DNA of 39,285 nt from an uncultured Eubacteriales bacterium. Its GTDB lineage: Bacteria > Bacillota > Clostridia > Peptostreptococcales > Anaerovoracaceae. The stretch spans positions 1-39,285 of the forward strand of contig ONRQ01000010.1 of assembly GCA_900320285.1 (NCBI GenBank), given 5' to 3'. Below are positions 16,268 to 37,720 of the stretch, one piece after another. Position 1 is the stretch's first letter. Each line of letters opens with the position of its first letter. A program made the translations under genes and the position numbers. Under the pieces are notes generated by a model that did not search any database, was not told the DNA's origin, and saw only the letters and a list, made by a program, of their open reading frames with translations.

Positions 16268-18607
16268 ATGTCCAACAAATACATAGGACAGGCGGTGACC
16301 AGGCATGACGCTCATGATAAGGCGATGGGACGCATCAAATATACTGACGACATGTGCCCAAGCGGCGCACTCGTCATCAGGGTGCTCCATTCCACAGTAG
16401 CCAACGGCATCGTCAAATCCATAGACACGAGCGAGGCCGAGAAGATACCCGGCGTAGTCCGCATCTTCACATGCTTCGACCTGAAAGAAAAGCACTATTT
16501 CCCTACAGCAGGCCACCCGTGGTCAACAGATCCGCACCATCAGGATATTGCGGACCGTCTCATCATGACGGAGCATCCGCTGTTCTACGGTGACGATATC
16601 GGAGCTGTCGTTGCAGAGGACGAGGTTGCCGCTTCACAGGCCCTGAGCATACTCGAAAAGAGTGTCGTTTATGAGGAACTTCCATTCGTTCTCGACGCGC
16701 AGGAAGCCATGGAGGAGGGAGCACCTCTGCTTCACGAGAAATTCCCTAACAACGTTCTCGCTCACACCGAGATTCACATGGGAAGCGTAGAGGAAGCTAT
16801 CAAGGAACCGGGACTTACAAAGTGCGAGGGCTGGTATGAGACACAGCCTGTTCAGCACTGCCACATAGAGAACTTCATCTGCTATGCCTACGGTGAGGGC
16901 GACAGGACCGTAGTGGTAAGCTCAACTCAGATCCCTCACATAGCAAGGCGTGTCATAGGACAGGCTACCGGAATGGACTGGGGCAAGTTCAGAGTCATCA
17001 AGCCTTATGTAGGAGGAGGATTCGGAAACAAGCAGGACGTGCTCTATGAGCCACTGTGCGCGTGGATAAGCATACAGCTCGGCGGACGTCTGGTGAAGCT
17101 CGACGTTCCGCGCGAGGAGACTTTCATCTGCAACCGTATCAGGCACGCGATCAGATACCATATCACATCGTGGATGAGACCTGACGGAAGCTTTGCGGCA
17201 CGCACATTCAAGGCATGGTGCAACAACGGAGCGTACAGCTCACACGGCCATGCGATCGCGGCAAAGGGTCTCAACGCCTTCCCGCAGCTCTACCCATGCG
17301 ACAACATAGACGGAGAGACCTGGACGGTCTACACAAACCGCTCTGTTGCCGGAGCGATGAGAGGCTACGGAATGCCTCAGGCCAGTTACGCGTTCGAATG
17401 CCACGCAGAGGACTGCGCCAGGGCGATGGGAATGGATCCGCTTGAGTTCCGCCGTAAGAACCTGATGCCGGTGGGTTACTATCACGCGTTCTCACAGAAC
17501 GAGCTTTATTCTGATACATTCAATCAGTGCTTCGACAAGGGCGCTGAGATCATCGGCTACTACGATAAGGTCAAAAAATACGCGAAACAGACCGGAGATA
17601 TAAGACGCGGCATCGCGGTATCCACATTCTGGTACAACACAGCCGTATATCCAATCGCGCTTGAGACTTCATCCTGCCGCATAGTCATGAACCAGGACGG
17701 CTCGGTACAGTTCCAGCTTGGCGAGACCGAGATAGGTCAGGGTGCAGACACAGCGGCCGCTCAGATGATCGCAGATACCCTGGGCATACCATTCAGCATG
17801 GTGCATCCGGTATCGTGCCAGGACACCGACATCACACCGTTCGGCACAGGTGTATACGCTTCAAGAGGCACATACACGCTCGGCTTCTCAGTAAGGCAGA
17901 CGGCACTGCTCCTCAAGGAGAAGGTGCTGGAGGCCGCGCATCAGTTCACGCGTATGCCGGTCTATAACCTCGACCTGGTCGACGGAAAGATCATCAGGAC
18001 GACAGACGGACGCGAACTCATGACGATAGGCGAACTTGCGCTTTCAAAGCTCTACACCACTGACGGTTCGCAGCACCTTACAGCCGAGTCGACATATCAG
18101 ATCAAGTCGAATGCGTACTCGTTCGGCTGCTGCTTCGCGGAGGTAGAAGTAGACATACCGATGTGCCGCGTAAGGCTGCTCAACATAGTGAACGTGCATG
18201 ACTGCGGACAGGTCATCAACCCTCTGCTCGCAGCAGGTCAGGTGCACGGAGGCCAGAGCATGGGTATAGGCTATGCTCTTTCAGAGAAACTCATGTGGGA
18301 TGCCAAGACGGGCAGACCGCTGAACAACAACCTGCTCGACTATAAGATGTCTTCATTCATGGATCACCCTAGACTGGTCGCTGATTTCGTAGAGAACTAC
18401 GAACCTACCAGTGCATACGGAACCAAGGGACTCGGCGAGCCTCCTGCGTGCCCGGTCGCTCCGGCTATCAGGAACGCGATAGGACAGGCAACCGGCCTGT
18501 ATATCAACGAGCTTCCGCTGTCGCCGCATACGCTCTTCCGCGAGTTCTCAGATGCGGGACTTATAAACGATCCATGGAGAAAAGAAGAGGGAAAGGAGGG
18601 CAAGTAG
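16268..18607 (+). CDS. xdhA: Xanthine dehydrogenase molybdenum-binding subunit
   Basis: A 779-residue large subunit of a three-subunit xanthine dehydrogenase that hydroxylates hypoxanthine and xanthine. The N-terminal aldehyde oxidase/xanthine dehydrogenase a/b hammerhead domain (about 20-135) is followed by the molybdopterin domains. Visible motifs are GGGFGNKQD near 248, GAMRGYGMPQ near 361 (the Arg of the substrate loop is kept), GQGADTAAAQ near 494, and KGLGEPPA near 719 with the catalytic Glu. It has no iron-sulfur domain; that role is filled by xdhC downstream. A strong AAAGGAGG precedes the start. xdhB begins two bases after the stop. Confidence 0.93.
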   Translation: MSNKYIGQAVTRHDAHDKAMGRIKYTDDMCPSGALVIRVLHSTVANGIVKSIDTSEAEKIPGVVRIFTCFDLKEKHYFPTAGHPWSTDPHHQDIADRLIMTEHPLFYGDDIGAVVAEDEVAASQALSILEKSVVYEELPFVLDAQEAMEEGAPLLHEKFPNNVLAHTEIHMGSVEEAIKEPGLTKCEGWYETQPVQHCHIENFICYAYGEGDRTVVVSSTQIPHIARRVIGQATGMDWGKFRVIKPYVGGGFGNKQDVLYEPLCAWISIQLGGRLVKLDVPREETFICNRIRHAIRYHITSWMRPDGSFAARTFKAWCNNGAYSSHGHAIAAKGLNAFPQLYPCDNIDGETWTVYTNRSVAGAMRGYGMPQASYAFECHAEDCARAMGMDPLEFRRKNLMPVGYYHAFSQNELYSDTFNQCFDKGAEIIGYYDKVKKYAKQTGDIRRGIAVSTFWYNTAVYPIALETSSCRIVMNQDGSVQFQLGETEIGQGADTAAAQMIADTLGIPFSMVHPVSCQDTDITPFGTGVYASRGTYTLGFSVRQTALLLKEKVLEAAHQFTRMPVYNLDLVDGKIIRTTDGRELMTIGELALSKLYTTDGSQHLTAESTYQIKSNAYSFGCCFAEVEVDIPMCRVRLLNIVNVHDCGQVINPLLAAGQVHGGQSMGIGYALSEKLMWDAKTGRPLNNNLLDYKMSSFMDHPRLVADFVENYEPTSAYGTKGLGEPPACPVAPAIRNAIGQATGLYINELPLSPHTLFREFSDAGLINDPWRKEEGKEGK

Positions 18608-29517: not shown

Positions 29518-32397
29518 GTGAGTACAATTTCTTACACATTCACAGTAAACGGAATAGAAAGAACTACCGACGAAAAGAAGCCTCTGCTCAGGTATCTCAG
29601 GGATGATCTCAAGCTGTACTCGGTAAAGGACGGCTGCTCGGAAGGAGCATGCGGTACATGCACCATAGTTGTGGATGGCTACGCCGTAAAAGCCTGCGTC
29701 CTCACCACAGACAGGGCCGCGGGCAAAAATATCATTACGGTAGAAGGTCTCAGCCTGCGTGAAAAGGAAGCTTTTGTCTATGCTTTCGGAACAGCAGGAT
29801 CGGTTCAGTGCGGCTTCTGCATACCGGGTATGGTAATGGCAGGGAAGGCTCTTATTGACCGCAACCCGGATCCTACAGAGGATGAAATAAAGAAAGCCAT
29901 CAGGGGAAACATTTGTCGCTGCACCGGTTATAAGAAAATCATTAACGGCATAAAGAGAGCTGCGTCAATTCTGCGCGGCGAAGAAGAGGTCAGACAGATA
30001 AGCCAATTTACGGGCAAGATGATGCCTGAGCAGAATGAATTCATCTCGGTTGTAGGCTCAAACTACGATCCTGAACGTGCTTCGGGAATAGAAAATTACG
30101 AAAACAGGGGCAACAGCTCACAGTACGGCATGGGACAGAACGTGTTCCGTATCGATGTCAGGAAAAAGGTGCTTGGTTACGGAAAATATCCGGACGATAT
30201 CGGACCTGAATACTTCGTACCTGTGGACAGACCTGATCTGATAATGGAACAGACCGGCTGGGGAGAAAAAGAGTATGCAGATGCTGTTGCAAAGGGCCTT
30301 ATCAAGCCGGGTAAGACTATCTACATGAAAGACGAGCCTCTTGTTAATATCTGTGTCGCAGTCGATCCTGACATGCCTCCTATGGCATATGCATCGGCCG
30401 TCCGCTCGCAGTATCCAAGAGCAATAATAAAGAAAATAATTAAGGAAAAAGCCGAGTCACTGCCGGGCGTCCTTGGCGTTCTGACAGCAGCTGACGTGCC
30501 GAACAACAAAGTGGGCCATATACAGCAGGACTGGGATGTCATGATAGCAGAAGGCGATACGACAAGGATGGTGGGGGACACCATATGCGTCGTAGTTGCT
30601 GAATCACCTTACATACTTGAGCAGGCCAAAAAAGCGGTAAAAGTAGAGTACGAACCTCTCGAGCCTGTGAGAAGCATATCCGAGGCCAGAGCTGAAGGAG
30701 CACCGAAGGTCCATTCAGGCGGGAATCTCTGTCAGACGAGACACGTAACGCGCGGTGACGCAGCGAAAGCACTTGCGGAGTCGGCATATACTGCGACGGC
30801 ATCGTTCACAACTCCGTTCACGGAGCACGCCTTCCTTGAGCCGGAATGTGCCGTGTCGTTCCCGTACAGGGACGGAGTCAAGATTCTCTCGACAGACCAG
30901 GGAGCTTATGACACCAGACACGAGGTGGCTATCATGCTCGGCTGGGAGGATTGTCAGGAACGCATCGTAGTAGAGAACCAGCTCATCGGTGGCGGCTTTG
31001 GCGGCAAGGAAGACGTTACGACACAGCATCTGACTGCTCTGGCAGCGCTGAAGTACAACAGGCCGGTGAAGATGAAGTTCAGCCGTGCGGAATCCCTCAG
31101 GGTACACCCTAAGAGGCACTACATGGAAGGGACTTTCACTGTTGGCTGCGATGAGAACGGCATACTGACAGGCCTCGACTGTGAGATCAATTTCGATACA
31201 GGCGCTTACGCAAGCCTGTGCGGACCTGTTCTTGAGAGAGCATGCACGCACAGCGTTGGCCCATACAATTATCACAACACGGATATCAGAGGATTCGGAT
31301 ATTATACCAATAATCCTCCTGCGGGAGCATTCAGAGGATTTGGTGTATGTCAGAGCCAGTTCGCTCTTGAATCACTCCTGAACGTACTGGCAAAGAAGGT
31401 CGGGATCAGTCCATGGGAGATAAGATACCGCAACGCGATTGAGCCGGGCCTTGAGCTTCCGAACGGGCAGATCGCGGATGTATCAACTGCGCTGAAAGAA
31501 ACTCTCGTAGCTGTGAAGCCATACTTTGACGATGCGCCGGAAGACAGGGTAGGCATAGCCTGCGCAATGAAGAACGCAGGTGTCGGAGTAGGACTTCCGG
31601 ATAAAGGCAGGGCAGAACTCAGAGTAAAGGACGGTCTGGTATGGGTATTCACTGCTGCTTCAGATATAGGCCAGGGATGCCAGACTGTATTCCTTCAGGA
31701 TGTTGCTCAGGCAACAGATCTGCCTATTACACAGATCTGGATCGGTAACAGCAATACAGAGAACGCGCCAAATTCAGGAACCACATCAGGATCCAGGCAG
31801 ACGCTGGTAACGGGCGAGGCAGTAAGAGGCGCCGCGCTTATGCTCAGGAAAGCCATGGATGAAGAGGGCGTCACTGAAGACACTCTGGATAAACTGGAAG
31901 GCAGAAAGTTCTTCTATGAGTATTTTGAGCCTACAGATAAGCTGGGATCAGACAAGCCTCATCCGAAGAGTCATATTGCATATGGCTTTGCTACAAACGT
32001 GGCGGTGCTTGATGCAGAAGGAAGGGTCACAGATATATATGCGGCATTTGATGCCGGGAAGGTAGTGAACCCGCTGTCAATGTCCGGCCAGATAGAGGGC
32101 GGAGTACTGATGAGCATGGGATATGCGCTTACTGAGAGCTGGCCTCTGAAGGACTGCGTGCCAACGGCTAAGTATGGAACTCTCGGCCTGCTGCGTTCGA
32201 CTGACATTCCGGAACTCCATGCGATACACGTAGAAAAGGATGAGCTTCTGGAAGCATCATACGGCGCAAAGGGCGTAGGCGAGATCACATCGATACCTGC
32301 GGCACCTGCGATCGCCGGCGCGTATTACGCGAGAGACGGAGTCCTGAGAACAAAGCTCCCGCTCGAGAACACATTCTATAGTAAAAAGAAGAAGTGA
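29518..32397 (+). CDS. Selenium-dependent xanthine dehydrogenase, fused iron-sulfur and molybdenum domains
   Basis: A 959-residue molybdenum hydroxylase with an intact N-terminal 2Fe-2S region: Cys40/45/48/60, Cys97/100 and Cys132/134. A linker (150-225) precedes the molybdenum domains with GGGFGGKED near 490, GAFRGFGVCQ near 601 (substrate-loop Arg kept) and AKGVGEITS near 916 with the catalytic Glu. The arrangement fits the selenium-dependent xanthine dehydrogenase family and the neighbouring yqeB. The first possible start, GTG 29518, lies inside the perfect AGGAGG site; an ATT at 29527 has ideal spacing (see findings). There is no FAD domain, so electrons probably leave through the RnfB-like protein, YgfM or XdhB. 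No in-frame TGA is present; selenium is expected as a non-encoded ligand. Confidence 0.9.
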   Translation: MSTISYTFTVNGIERTTDEKKPLLRYLRDDLKLYSVKDGCSEGACGTCTIVVDGYAVKACVLTTDRAAGKNIITVEGLSLREKEAFVYAFGTAGSVQCGFCIPGMVMAGKALIDRNPDPTEDEIKKAIRGNICRCTGYKKIINGIKRAASILRGEEEVRQISQFTGKMMPEQNEFISVVGSNYDPERASGIENYENRGNSSQYGMGQNVFRIDVRKKVLGYGKYPDDIGPEYFVPVDRPDLIMEQTGWGEKEYADAVAKGLIKPGKTIYMKDEPLVNICVAVDPDMPPMAYASAVRSQYPRAIIKKIIKEKAESLPGVLGVLTAADVPNNKVGHIQQDWDVMIAEGDTTRMVGDTICVVVAESPYILEQAKKAVKVEYEPLEPVRSISEARAEGAPKVHSGGNLCQTRHVTRGDAAKALAESAYTATASFTTPFTEHAFLEPECAVSFPYRDGVKILSTDQGAYDTRHEVAIMLGWEDCQERIVVENQLIGGGFGGKEDVTTQHLTALAALKYNRPVKMKFSRAESLRVHPKRHYMEGTFTVGCDENGILTGLDCEINFDTGAYASLCGPVLERACTHSVGPYNYHNTDIRGFGYYTNNPPAGAFRGFGVCQSQFALESLLNVLAKKVGISPWEIRYRNAIEPGLELPNGQIADVSTALKETLVAVKPYFDDAPEDRVGIACAMKNAGVGVGLPDKGRAELRVKDGLVWVFTAASDIGQGCQTVFLQDVAQATDLPITQIWIGNSNTENAPNSGTTSGSRQTLVTGEAVRGAALMLRKAMDEEGVTEDTLDKLEGRKFFYEYFEPTDKLGSDKPHPKSHIAYGFATNVAVLDAEGRVTDIYAAFDAGKVVNPLSMSGQIEGGVLMSMGYALTESWPLKDCVPTAKYGTLGLLRSTDIPELHAIHVEKDELLEASYGAKGVGEITSIPAAPAIAGAYYARDGVLRTKLPLENTFYSKKKK

Positions 32398-33950: not shown

Positions 33951-35378
33951 ATGTCAAAGGCAACAGAACTTGCAGAAAAGCTCGCGAAGCTTAACATCGC
34001 AGACATGTATGAGAACGATTTCTTTCTGACATGGGAGAAGACAGACGATGAGATCGAGGCGGTATTCGCTGTGGCAGACGCACTGAGAGACCTGAGAGAG
34101 CGCAATAAATCCACAAAGATCTTCGACTCGGGGCTCGGTATCTCGATCTTCCGTGACAACTCAACAAGAACACGTTTTTCATTTGCCAGCGCCTGCAACC
34201 TGCTCGGACTTGAGGTAGCGGACCTCGACGAGAAGAAGTCACAGATCGCTCATGGTGAAACCGTACGCGAGACAGCTACAATGATCTCGTTCATGGCAGA
34301 CGTTATTGGTATCCGTGATGATATGTATATCGGCAAAGGCAACGCTTATATGCACGAGTTTATGGACTCTGTCACACAGGCACATGAGGACGGAGAACTC
34401 GAGCAGAAACCGACACTTGTAAATCTGCAGTGCGATATCGACCATCCGACACAAGCAATGGCTGACGCACTTCACATCATTCACGAGTTCGGCGGAGTAG
34501 AGAACCTGAAGGGCAAGAAGATCGCCATGAGCTGGGCTTACTCCCCATCATACGGCAAGCCTCTTTCAGTTCCTCAGGGAATCATCGGACTCCTGACTCG
34601 CTTCGGAATGGACGTCGTTCTTGCTCATCCGGAAGGATATGAGGTTATGGGCGATGTAGTAGAGGTAGCAAAGAAGAACGCTGCTGAAGCCGGCGGAAAG
34701 TTCTCCATAACAAATGACATGAAGGAAGCTTTCAAGGACGCGGATGTCGTATATCCGAAGAGCTGGGCTCCTTTCGCAGCTATGGAGGTACGTACCGATC
34801 TTTATGGCAAGGGCGATTTCGATGGCATTGACAAGCTCGAGAAGGAACTGCTTGAGATCCCGTCCAGGATCGATCATCAGAATGATCTTATCTCAAAGTG
34901 TGAGGACGATATCGGATACTGCACAGAGTGGAGAAAAGCCAATCCTCCTGTTACCGAGAACAAGCTCAAGAAGGAAGCGGCTCAGAAGCGAAAAGATCTG
35001 AGGGAGACCATAGGAAATGCAGTCAGGAATAACATCCTTCAGACCACCGAGAATCCGCTCATGGTCTACCGCGGATTTGCTATCGTCCTTCCTACGAACA
35101 TGACTTCCGAAAGACCTCATGTCTGGCTTGTCAGGAGCGGCAGATATCCTGTCGAGCTGGGTGATACCGATACCGGAAATCTTATAAGGATCGACAATGC
35201 TCTGGACACTTTGGATGAACATCTGGAAAAGCTTAAAAACGGCCTTCAGATGTTTAAGAAAAGGCAGTCCGATATCAAGTCGGAACTCGAAAAAGATGAG
35301 GGCTATGCTGACAAGATCGAATACTACAGAAACAAAGTCGATGAGCTCGATGAGAAGCTGGGAGCAAAGGAAAAATGA
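33951..35378 (+). CDS. ygeW: Chimeric ORF: truncated YgeW carbamoyltransferase joined to mobile-element helicase tail
   Basis: A 475-residue frame. Residues 1 to about 300 are YgeW, the knotted carbamoyltransferase of purine clusters, with the carbamoyl-phosphate motif STRTR at 71-75, HPTQ at 165-168, and AYSPSYGKP near 196-204. YgeW normally has about 395 residues and ends with a domain carrying an HCLP motif; that part is missing. From about residue 301 the sequence is unlike any transcarbamoylase and resembles the end of a very large helicase of integrative elements. The enzyme would lack its second-substrate site and is probably inactive. The ribosome site is AAGGAGAG. The stop overlaps the next ATG (ATGA). 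The join could be biological or an assembly error. Confidence 0.8.
   Translation: MSKATELAEKLAKLNIADMYENDFFLTWEKTDDEIEAVFAVADALRDLRERNKSTKIFDSGLGISIFRDNSTRTRFSFASACNLLGLEVADLDEKKSQIAHGETVRETATMISFMADVIGIRDDMYIGKGNAYMHEFMDSVTQAHEDGELEQKPTLVNLQCDIDHPTQAMADALHIIHEFGGVENLKGKKIAMSWAYSPSYGKPLSVPQGIIGLLTRFGMDVVLAHPEGYEVMGDVVEVAKKNAAEAGGKFSITNDMKEAFKDADVVYPKSWAPFAAMEVRTDLYGKGDFDGIDKLEKELLEIPSRIDHQNDLISKCEDDIGYCTEWRKANPPVTENKLKKEAAQKRKDLRETIGNAVRNNILQTTENPLMVYRGFAIVLPTNMTSERPHVWLVRSGRYPVELGDTDTGNLIRIDNALDTLDEHLEKLKNGLQMFKKRQSDIKSELEKDEGYADKIEYYRNKVDELDEKLGAKEK
34857..35378 (+). pseudogene. C-terminal fragment of an ICE/phage-type large helicase (fused in frame)
   Basis: Residues about 303-475 of the chimeric frame. 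Recognisable parts are DIGYCTEWRKANPPVTENKL, YRGFAIVLPTNM, VWLVRSGRYPVELG and GNLIRIDNALD, followed by a coiled coil (about 420-472) that ends the protein. From memory this is the standard end of DEAD/SNF2 helicase-methylase proteins of more than 1500 residues in Firmicutes conjugative elements. All the helicase motifs are absent here because the 5' part is not present. It lies directly before a MoxR gene with ATGA overlap. Confidence 0.65.
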
Positions 35379-36493
35379 GTGAAGTTAGATTATCCAATGT
35401 GCCGTCAATGTCTGTCGGCAAGCTGATCGAGGTGCTGGGCAGTTCATACTGCACGGTGATAAACAACATGCTGCCATTGAAGACAATGCCTTCCGTCATG
35501 CTTTGGGGTCCTCCCGGAGTCGGTAAATCGCAGGCGGTAAGGCAGATCGCATCTGTGATCGAAGATTCTACGGGCAAAAAGGTCAATGTTACTGACGTCA
35601 GACTTTTGCTTTTCAACCCCATTGATCTTCGCGGCATTCCTACTTCGAACGCAGATAAAACTTTGGCTGTATGGCTTAAGCCGCAGATCTTCCAGATGGA
35701 TGATTCTCCTGATGTGGTGAACATCCTTTTCTTAGATGAGATATCAGCTGCACCTCAATCGGTACAGGCGGCTGCTTATCAGATAACGCTGGACAGGACC
35801 GTTGGCGAGCACCGGCTGCCTGACAACTGCATCGTCATTGCGGCAGGCAACAGAGTGACTGATAAGTCTGTTGCTTTCAAGATGCCCAAGGCTTTGGCCA
35901 ACCGTCTCATGCATATCGAAGTTGAAGGCAGTTTTGATGCATGGAAGAAGTGGGCAATAAAGAACGGGATCAATGACAAGGTAATCGGTTTTCTCTCGTT
36001 CAGGAGCAATTATCTCATGGGCTTTGAGGGAAGCACTGACGATCTTGCGTTTGCGACACCGCGTTCCTGGGAGATGGTCAGCAACATATTAAACGGTATC
36101 GATAACAGCATCGAAAAGATGTATCCGCTTATCGCGGGTCTGATAGGTTCAGGAGTTGCGATCGAATTCCGGACATGGGAGAAGGTATATAAGGATCTTC
36201 CTTCTATAGAGGATATTTTCGCCGGCAAGATGCCAAAGGTTCCCAGGAGCATGGACGCGTTATATGCACTGACGTCTTCCATGACCGTCTATGCAAGAAA
36301 CCATAAGAATGACATGACGGCCATCGGTAATTCCATCAGGTATTCCGAGACCATGCCGCCAGATTTCAGTGTCGTTCTGCTTAAGGATTACATGTATATA
36401 GAGCCCGGCTTCAGGGAGAAGCTGATGATGGTCCCCGAGTTCGTCAAATGGATGCAGAGCAAAGGAAAACTTCTGAATGGATCTGTCAAGTGA
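35375..36493 (+). CDS. MoxR-like AAA+ ATPase
   Basis: A 372-residue ATPase of the MoxR/dynein-related AAA_5 group. Walker A is GPPGVGKS at 45-52, Walker B ILFLDEI at 117-123, sensor 1 VIAAGN at 154-159 and the arginine-finger region ALANRLMHIEV near 173. After the AAA module there is a helical region with FATPRSWEM near 227. MoxR ATPases work with VWA proteins to remodel or activate metal-dependent targets, and such a partner follows with a 17-base overlap. It starts in the ATGA shared with the helicase tail. The target in this element is unknown. Confidence 0.88.
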   Translation: MSEVRLSNVPSMSVGKLIEVLGSSYCTVINNMLPLKTMPSVMLWGPPGVGKSQAVRQIASVIEDSTGKKVNVTDVRLLLFNPIDLRGIPTSNADKTLAVWLKPQIFQMDDSPDVVNILFLDEISAAPQSVQAAAYQITLDRTVGEHRLPDNCIVIAAGNRVTDKSVAFKMPKALANRLMHIEVEGSFDAWKKWAIKNGINDKVIGFLSFRSNYLMGFEGSTDDLAFATPRSWEMVSNILNGIDNSIEKMYPLIAGLIGSGVAIEFRTWEKVYKDLPSIEDIFAGKMPKVPRSMDALYALTSSMTVYARNHKNDMTAIGNSIRYSETMPPDFSVVLLKDYMYIEPGFREKLMMVPEFVKWMQSKGKLLNGSVK

Positions 36494-37694
36494 GAAGAGA
36501 CGTGAATACGTAAAGCGCATACTGCTGTCGAGGATGAGGATCCTTTGTAATAACGGATTCTACGGCCTGCTTCTCATGCATATGAATTTCGCGATCGACA
36601 CGGGATGCGAGACAGCCTGCACCGACGGCAGGAAGATATATTTCGGTCCTTCGTTCCTGAATAATCTGGACGATGACGAGCTTGATTTCATAATGATGCA
36701 TGAGGTAATGCACTGTGCGCTGCAGCATTGCATCCGCGGCAAGGATTACGATCAGGAGGCTTTTAATATCGCGTGCGATATCGTTGTGAATTCCAACATT
36801 CTTGAATCTAACAAGGGTGACTTAAAGTCCATAACCCTGAAGAAATACGGCGAGTCAATGCACGTGGCTCCGGACGGCAAAGAAGGCAGGTTCTATACTG
36901 CTGAAGAAGTATATGCGATGCTTCCCGTCAAAGGAAAGAAAAAGGGTGCATCGGGGATGATGGGTTCCGGTGGTAATGGCAGTGGTAACTGGGATGACCA
37001 CAGCAAGTGGGGTACTGCTGATGAAGACGGGTCTCTCAAAGACGAATGGTCAAAGAATCTTTTAGATGCATGCGAAGCGATCGAGATCAGAGATCCGTCA
37101 AATCAGCGCGGCCTTATTCCTCTTTGTGCTGACCGTATCATTAAGGAGCTCCGCAAGCCGCAAACCGACTGGCGAACGATATTAAACGACTTTGTTCAGG
37201 AGGAGATAACCGACTATTCGTTCACTCCGCCTGACAGAAGATTCGATGAAAGTCCTTTCTTTCTGCCTGATTACAACGAGAAAGACGAAACGGTGAAAGA
37301 CATCCTCTTTATGATCGACACTTCCGGGAGTATGTCTGACGAAGCAATAACGGCAGTATATTCGGAGATCAAAGGAGCCATAGATCAGTTCAACGGACAT
37401 CTTCAGGGATGGCTCGGTTTCTTTGATGCAGAAGTCGTGGAACCTAAGCCTTTTTCCAGCGAAGAAGAGTTCAGGATAATAAGACCTAAAGGCGGAGGCG
37501 GAACCAGGTTCGATATTATTTTCAAATATGTGGAAAAGCATATGGATACATTACCGGCAAGCATAATTATCATGACGGACGGATATGCTGATTTCCCGAA
37601 AGAGGAAGAAGCGATGGAGATACCTGTCCTGTGGCTTCTGGTGACAGACGATGTCGAGCCGCCGTGGGGAAAAGTTGCACGGATCAAAGTATAA
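36477..37694 (+). CDS. VWA-like protein with zinc-peptidase motif (DUF2201 type)
   Basis: A 405-residue protein. The N-terminal half has HEVMH at 75-79 inside FIMMHEVMHCALQH, the HExxH motif of zinc metallopeptidase folds, with a possible third ligand in ACDIVVN (residues 99-105). A Gly/Ser-rich linker spans about 152-172. The C-terminal VWA domain starts near 275 with MIDAS motif DTSGSMS at 281-287 and later GGGGTRFD and MTDGYAD. It is translated in overlap with the MoxR gene, the RavA-ViaA type of pairing. It may bind or process a protein target under ATPase control; whether the peptidase site is active cannot be told from sequence. Confidence 0.87.
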   Translation: MDLSSEKRREYVKRILLSRMRILCNNGFYGLLLMHMNFAIDTGCETACTDGRKIYFGPSFLNNLDDDELDFIMMHEVMHCALQHCIRGKDYDQEAFNIACDIVVNSNILESNKGDLKSITLKKYGESMHVAPDGKEGRFYTAEEVYAMLPVKGKKKGASGMMGSGGNGSGNWDDHSKWGTADEDGSLKDEWSKNLLDACEAIEIRDPSNQRGLIPLCADRIIKELRKPQTDWRTILNDFVQEEITDYSFTPPDRRFDESPFFLPDYNEKDETVKDILFMIDTSGSMSDEAITAVYSEIKGAIDQFNGHLQGWLGFFDAEVVEPKPFSSEEEFRIIRPKGGGGTRFDIIFKYVEKHMDTLPASIIIMTDGYADFPKEEEAMEIPVLWLLVTDDVEPPWGKVARIKV

Positions 37695-37720
37695 ATCGAT
37701 GGCACAAAAATGACCCATGG

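Follow-up and report, generated by a model that had tools for sequence, protein, structure and literature searches.

A fused YgeW-helicase frame interpreted as a probable metagenome-assembly chimera, with the missing end of ygeW on a second contig

The window analysed here is an entire contig (C55) of 39,285 bases, which belongs to a metagenome assembly (G000) of 88 contigs with a completeness of 78.6% and a contamination of 2.46%. Between positions 16268 and 33800 it contains a uric acid and purine degradation cluster, with matches to XdhA, XdhB, the Mo/Fe-S subunit of a molybdopterin oxidoreductase, SsnA, YgfK and YqeB, as well as to a selenium-dependent xanthine dehydrogenase and a dihydropyrimidinase/hydantoinase. 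A 959-aa frame in this region (29518-32397) matches an XdhC-type iron-sulfur subunit at the N-terminus, with a score below the family cut-off, and further on selenium-dependent xanthine dehydrogenase. The YgeW protein of E. coli is encoded in a uricolytic gene cluster together with YgfK, SsnA, HyuA and a carbamate kinase, according to PMC12507026. The pathway genes of the window would thus lead one to expect a complete ygeW with a kinase gene after it.

The ygeW gene of the window lies instead within a single uninterrupted open reading frame of 475 aa (33951-35378, forward strand, in the ORF listing of the window), in which YgeW runs up to residue ~303 and is followed by the C-terminal tail of an SNF2-like helicase, so that the in-frame switch without a stop described in an earlier note on this DNA does exist in the contig. 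The YgeW-like start of the frame is equally clear, since residues 6-303 match the NCBIfam family TIGR03316 (ygeW) over positions 3-300 of a profile of 391, with 600 bits, which passes the curated cut-off of 500 bits despite the partial coverage of the profile. This 5′ part of the gene for a knotted carbamoyltransferase (33951-34854, forward strand, residues 1 to ~301) is native to the locus, being collinear with ygeW of the relatives G013, G026, G024 and G008 up to 34852-34854. On the other hand, the Asp/Orn-binding half of the enzyme is incomplete, as the OTCace domain (PF00185) covers only positions 20-81 of the 157 of its profile in the 475-aa frame, whereas the remaining positions, 86-154, were found on another contig of the same assembly (C53).

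Scanned alone, the 178 aa encoded from 34842 on gave no match to any Pfam or NCBIfam family, and their nature was deduced from alignments with native helicases. These place them at the C-terminus of proteins of 1105-1192 aa, with 66-76% amino acid identity to the helicases of four loci, L049-L052 (1119-1192 aa), the alignments starting at 34834 for L051 and at 34839 for L049, L050 and L052. The segment 34855-35378 (forward strand) would therefore be the C-terminal tail of an SNF2-like helicase of about 1120-1190 aa, foreign to the locus as judged from its amino acid identity and alignment to L049-L052. The native proteins of L050 and L051, the two of the four that were scanned with Pfam, carry the domains SNF2-rel_dom, ResIII and Helicase_C, and their motor domains end at residues 844 and 895, with the tail lying beyond. 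In agreement with this, the motor domains SNF2-rel_dom and Helicase_C were absent from the tail of the window in the Pfam scan, and the helicase C-terminus announced by the earlier note holds as an alignment, with the correction that it is a tail beyond the motor domains. Two genes of the same helicase module follow on the forward strand: an AAA ATPase gene (35375-36493, Pfam AAA_3), which corresponds to the 372-aa gene located after the helicase in L049-L052, and a DUF2201 putative metallopeptidase/VWA-like gene (36477-37694, Pfam DUF2201_N and DUF2201), where the DNA matches to L050, L051 and L052 extend up to 37690-37698. The matches to the L049-L052 loci end at 37698 at most, and no DNA match to these four loci was obtained for the final ~1.6 kb, where a PcfJ-like gene lies near the right end of the contig (37774-39066, forward strand, Pfam PcfJ).

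Loci of four genomes, G071-G074, share 74-78% DNA identity with the helicase arm, and matches of any kind to the arm were detected in 10 of the 85 genomes searched around G073, G071-G074 included; G135 and G084 had none, and a near-identical source was not found among the 85. A search of the genus of the window found the tail in 4 of 47 genomes, namely its own and G007 (twice), G025 and G029, the last three with 35-39% identity and within long frames, of which that of G025 runs off the start of its contig. Searches for the tail in the viral_contigs set and for the right arm among plasmids ('near' mode) found nothing. The N-terminal part of the helicase was not found in the same assembly at E <= 0.01 with a homologue from the genus as query, an absence that is weak as evidence in an assembly with 78.6% completeness. 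The order-3 composition of the right arm, expressed as the score for organism A (the bearer of ygeW) minus that for lineage B (the genus around G073) per kb, is -8.8, compared with -8.9 to 4.2 for seven values obtained at other lineage-B loci, the training set of the B model being made up of right-arm homologues, and 13.2 to 18.0 for 11 blocks of G013, which are homologous to the training sequence of A. This composition agrees with a chimera as far as the right arm is concerned, with the proviso that both training sets hold homologues of the scored DNA.

The C-terminus of YgeW is present in the same assembly. A search with this part of the protein located it at C53:622-912 with 98% identity, close to the end of a contig of 35,761 bases, which is where an assembly chimera would leave a missing continuation. 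The order of features on C53 is a RadA fragment, the YgeW end in frame with it, and a gene for a 314-aa protein of the amino-acid-kinase family. The fragment (L053, G000:C53:1-615) corresponds to positions 236-440 of TIGR00416, with a score below the family cut-off, as it is only a fragment. Both joins are marked by one and the same string: the 16 nt at 34839-34854 of the window recur exactly at C53:607-622. When the whole assembly was searched with up to one mismatch, the exact 16-mer occurred only at the two seams, with one further place showing one mismatch, and the backward control yielded 0 matches. The start of C53 is thus very probably chimeric as well, the second contig end of this kind, with its cut at the seam string of the window.

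Comparison with relatives indicates how the two halves should be arranged. Among 60 relatives searched for ygeW, 22 had near-full-length frames, 21 from the same genus and one (G058) from the same order, while G006 and G009, with ygeW in two pieces, were left out. In G006 the two pieces (L026, G006:C161:6381-7306) overlap near residue 164, away from the position of the window seam, possibly because of a frameshift. In the translated rows of all 22 frames, the LEKEL-type stretch is followed by the usual end of a carbamoyltransferase, and the helicase tail is absent from every one of them. The end that the earlier note described as lost and HCLP-containing is indeed absent from the fused frame, although the motif reads HPLP in 19 of the 22 rows and HCLP in the other 3. 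At the DNA level, the crossover proposed from the letters is confirmed, as collinearity with ygeW stops at 34852-34854 and the helicase alignments begin at 34834 or 34839. The match of the window to G013 extends to 34854 and that of C53 starts at 604, with an overlap of 19 bases; for G026, G024 and G008 the corresponding limits are 34852 and 604, with an overlap of 17 bases, so the halves are neighbours, contiguous in all four relatives compared. In short, the assembly contains ygeW in two halves, which are cut at one string and each joined to foreign DNA, and which lie next to each other in four relatives. A real fusion with loss of YgeW activity, as had been envisaged, is rejected because the C-terminus exists in the same assembly, on the chimeric end of C53, and because the relatives have the gene in one piece.

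The partner of the YgeW end on C53 does not come from the native radA, which is intact at C41:8471-9832 and whose product shares only 39% amino acid identity with the fragment. In the search for radA, with matches in 78 of the 85 genomes, the fragment showed DNA identities of 95% with G135, 94% with G084 and 79% with both G073 and G074; its composition (7.2) falls between A and B, and is indecisive for a piece as short as 606 bases. The nearest genomes of the helicase and RadA pieces differ, so the pieces need not share one organism, and both appear to point to the genus around G073, though not to one genome. These affinities bear on the idea of a real rearrangement inside organism A, in which recombination at a short repeat would have separated the halves of ygeW. 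The presence of the same 16-nt string at both seams is what such an event would leave, but the partners do not look native, with a RadA fragment from another lineage next to an intact radA of the organism itself and a helicase arm nearest to lineage B, and we regard this as the least probable of the explanations considered.

The preferred reading, to which we would assign a probability of about 95% from the sequence comparisons, is that the fused YgeW-helicase frame is a metagenome-assembly chimera and does not represent a real fused gene. The ygeW of organism A and a helicase gene of lineage B would carry nearly the same string of ~21 nt; the assembler would have left ygeW at this shared string and run on into the helicase module, producing the window, while the rest of ygeW would have remained on C53 with its cut end attached to the lineage-B RadA fragment at the same string. 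That the joins were made by the assembler and not by the cell, and by this route, is what we infer from the arrangement of the pieces. The real genome most likely contains an intact ygeW of ~398 aa followed by the gene of the amino-acid-kinase family, as in relatives, a gene that, judging from the pathway, would encode carbamate kinase, and YgeW is probably intact in the organism.

The LEKEL-type stretch, which had been suggested as the guide of either recombination in the cell or a false join, is real, and the false join gains strong support. The seam string common to ygeW and the lineage-B helicase (34834-34854, forward strand) is matched in 20 of its 21 bases by the native L051, and in 16, 16 and 14 by L049, L050 and L052, respectively. 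The smallest k used by common assemblers is usually 21. With 20 of the 21 bases present in L051, the source strain could share one 21-mer with ygeW, and the join in the window could be explained by a shared k-mer. The RadA side is different. Of the 30 radA loci read, L110 stops short of the seam and gives no information, and in all the remaining 29 the native sequence agrees with ygeW from C53:607 over a run of no more than 11 nt: 2 nt in four loci, 5 in five, 8 in three, 9 in three and 11 in 14, where the first 11 nt of the seam string are thus native. Such a run falls short of what an ordinary graph with k=21 requires and leaves the join on C53 unexplained by a shared 21-mer, a mechanism that is plausible at the helicase seam and is not borne out at that of radA. 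This join is the weakest part of the chimera account, and would need another step, such as an overlap join during scaffolding, a chimeric fragment or a differing source strain.

The same 11-nt limit, in that it does not favour a k-mer misjoin at the radA seam, speaks for a real insertion, in which foreign DNA, from the helicase tail through the AAA, VWA and PcfJ genes to the RadA fragment, would have entered the ygeW of organism A with 16-nt direct repeats at its flanks, giving rise to the YgeW-tail fusion. The seams do have the geometry of an insert with a flanking 16-nt repeat, and neither flank belongs to the locus. However, the string is part of the native coding sequence of the helicase, and partly also of that of RadA, and hence is not a simple duplication of the target; the insert would have to start and end inside two genes, one of which, the RadA fragment, matches a housekeeping family; in G071-G074 the helicase and radA matches are found on separate contigs, which is compatible with linkage; no integrase or transposase family was matched by the four right-arm proteins scanned against Pfam and NCBIfam; and none of the four relatives (G013, G026, G024 and G008) has an insert at the site. 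Insertion of a mobile element was accordingly rejected, on the grounds that the foreign helicase itself carries the seam string natively and that the ends of the would-be insert fall inside genes, and the insertion in general seems very improbable. A cross-genus variant, with recombination at a coding string common to ygeW, the helicase of an element and radA that would create both the YgeW-helicase-tail and the RadA-YgeW fusions, deserves similarly little credence.

If read literally, the window would burden a uric acid degradation cluster with a spurious fusion protein and a spurious loss of a gene. With respect to the reductive uric acid pathway that includes YgeW (PMC12507026), the window likewise holds genes for SsnA, YgfK, a hydantoinase and xanthine dehydrogenase. 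As for the YgeW family, the first ~303 residues of the frame match, and the C-terminal ~97 are missing from it as assembled. In DNA, the tail matches L050-L052 together with the two genes after it, as an SNF2-like helicase module with AAA and DUF2201 genes, whereas, in comparison with native SNF2-like helicases, ~940-1010 residues on the N-terminal side, with the motor domains among them, are absent from the window. Inter-organism chimeric contigs occur in metagenome assemblies, and read support is the test named for them in PMC7111523. Compared with the chimeric contigs described there, two contigs are very probably chimeric here at one string, as judged from the assembled sequence, and for this reason the lost half could be found: a cheap test that dispenses with reads is to look for the lost half in the same assembly and to inspect what it is attached to.
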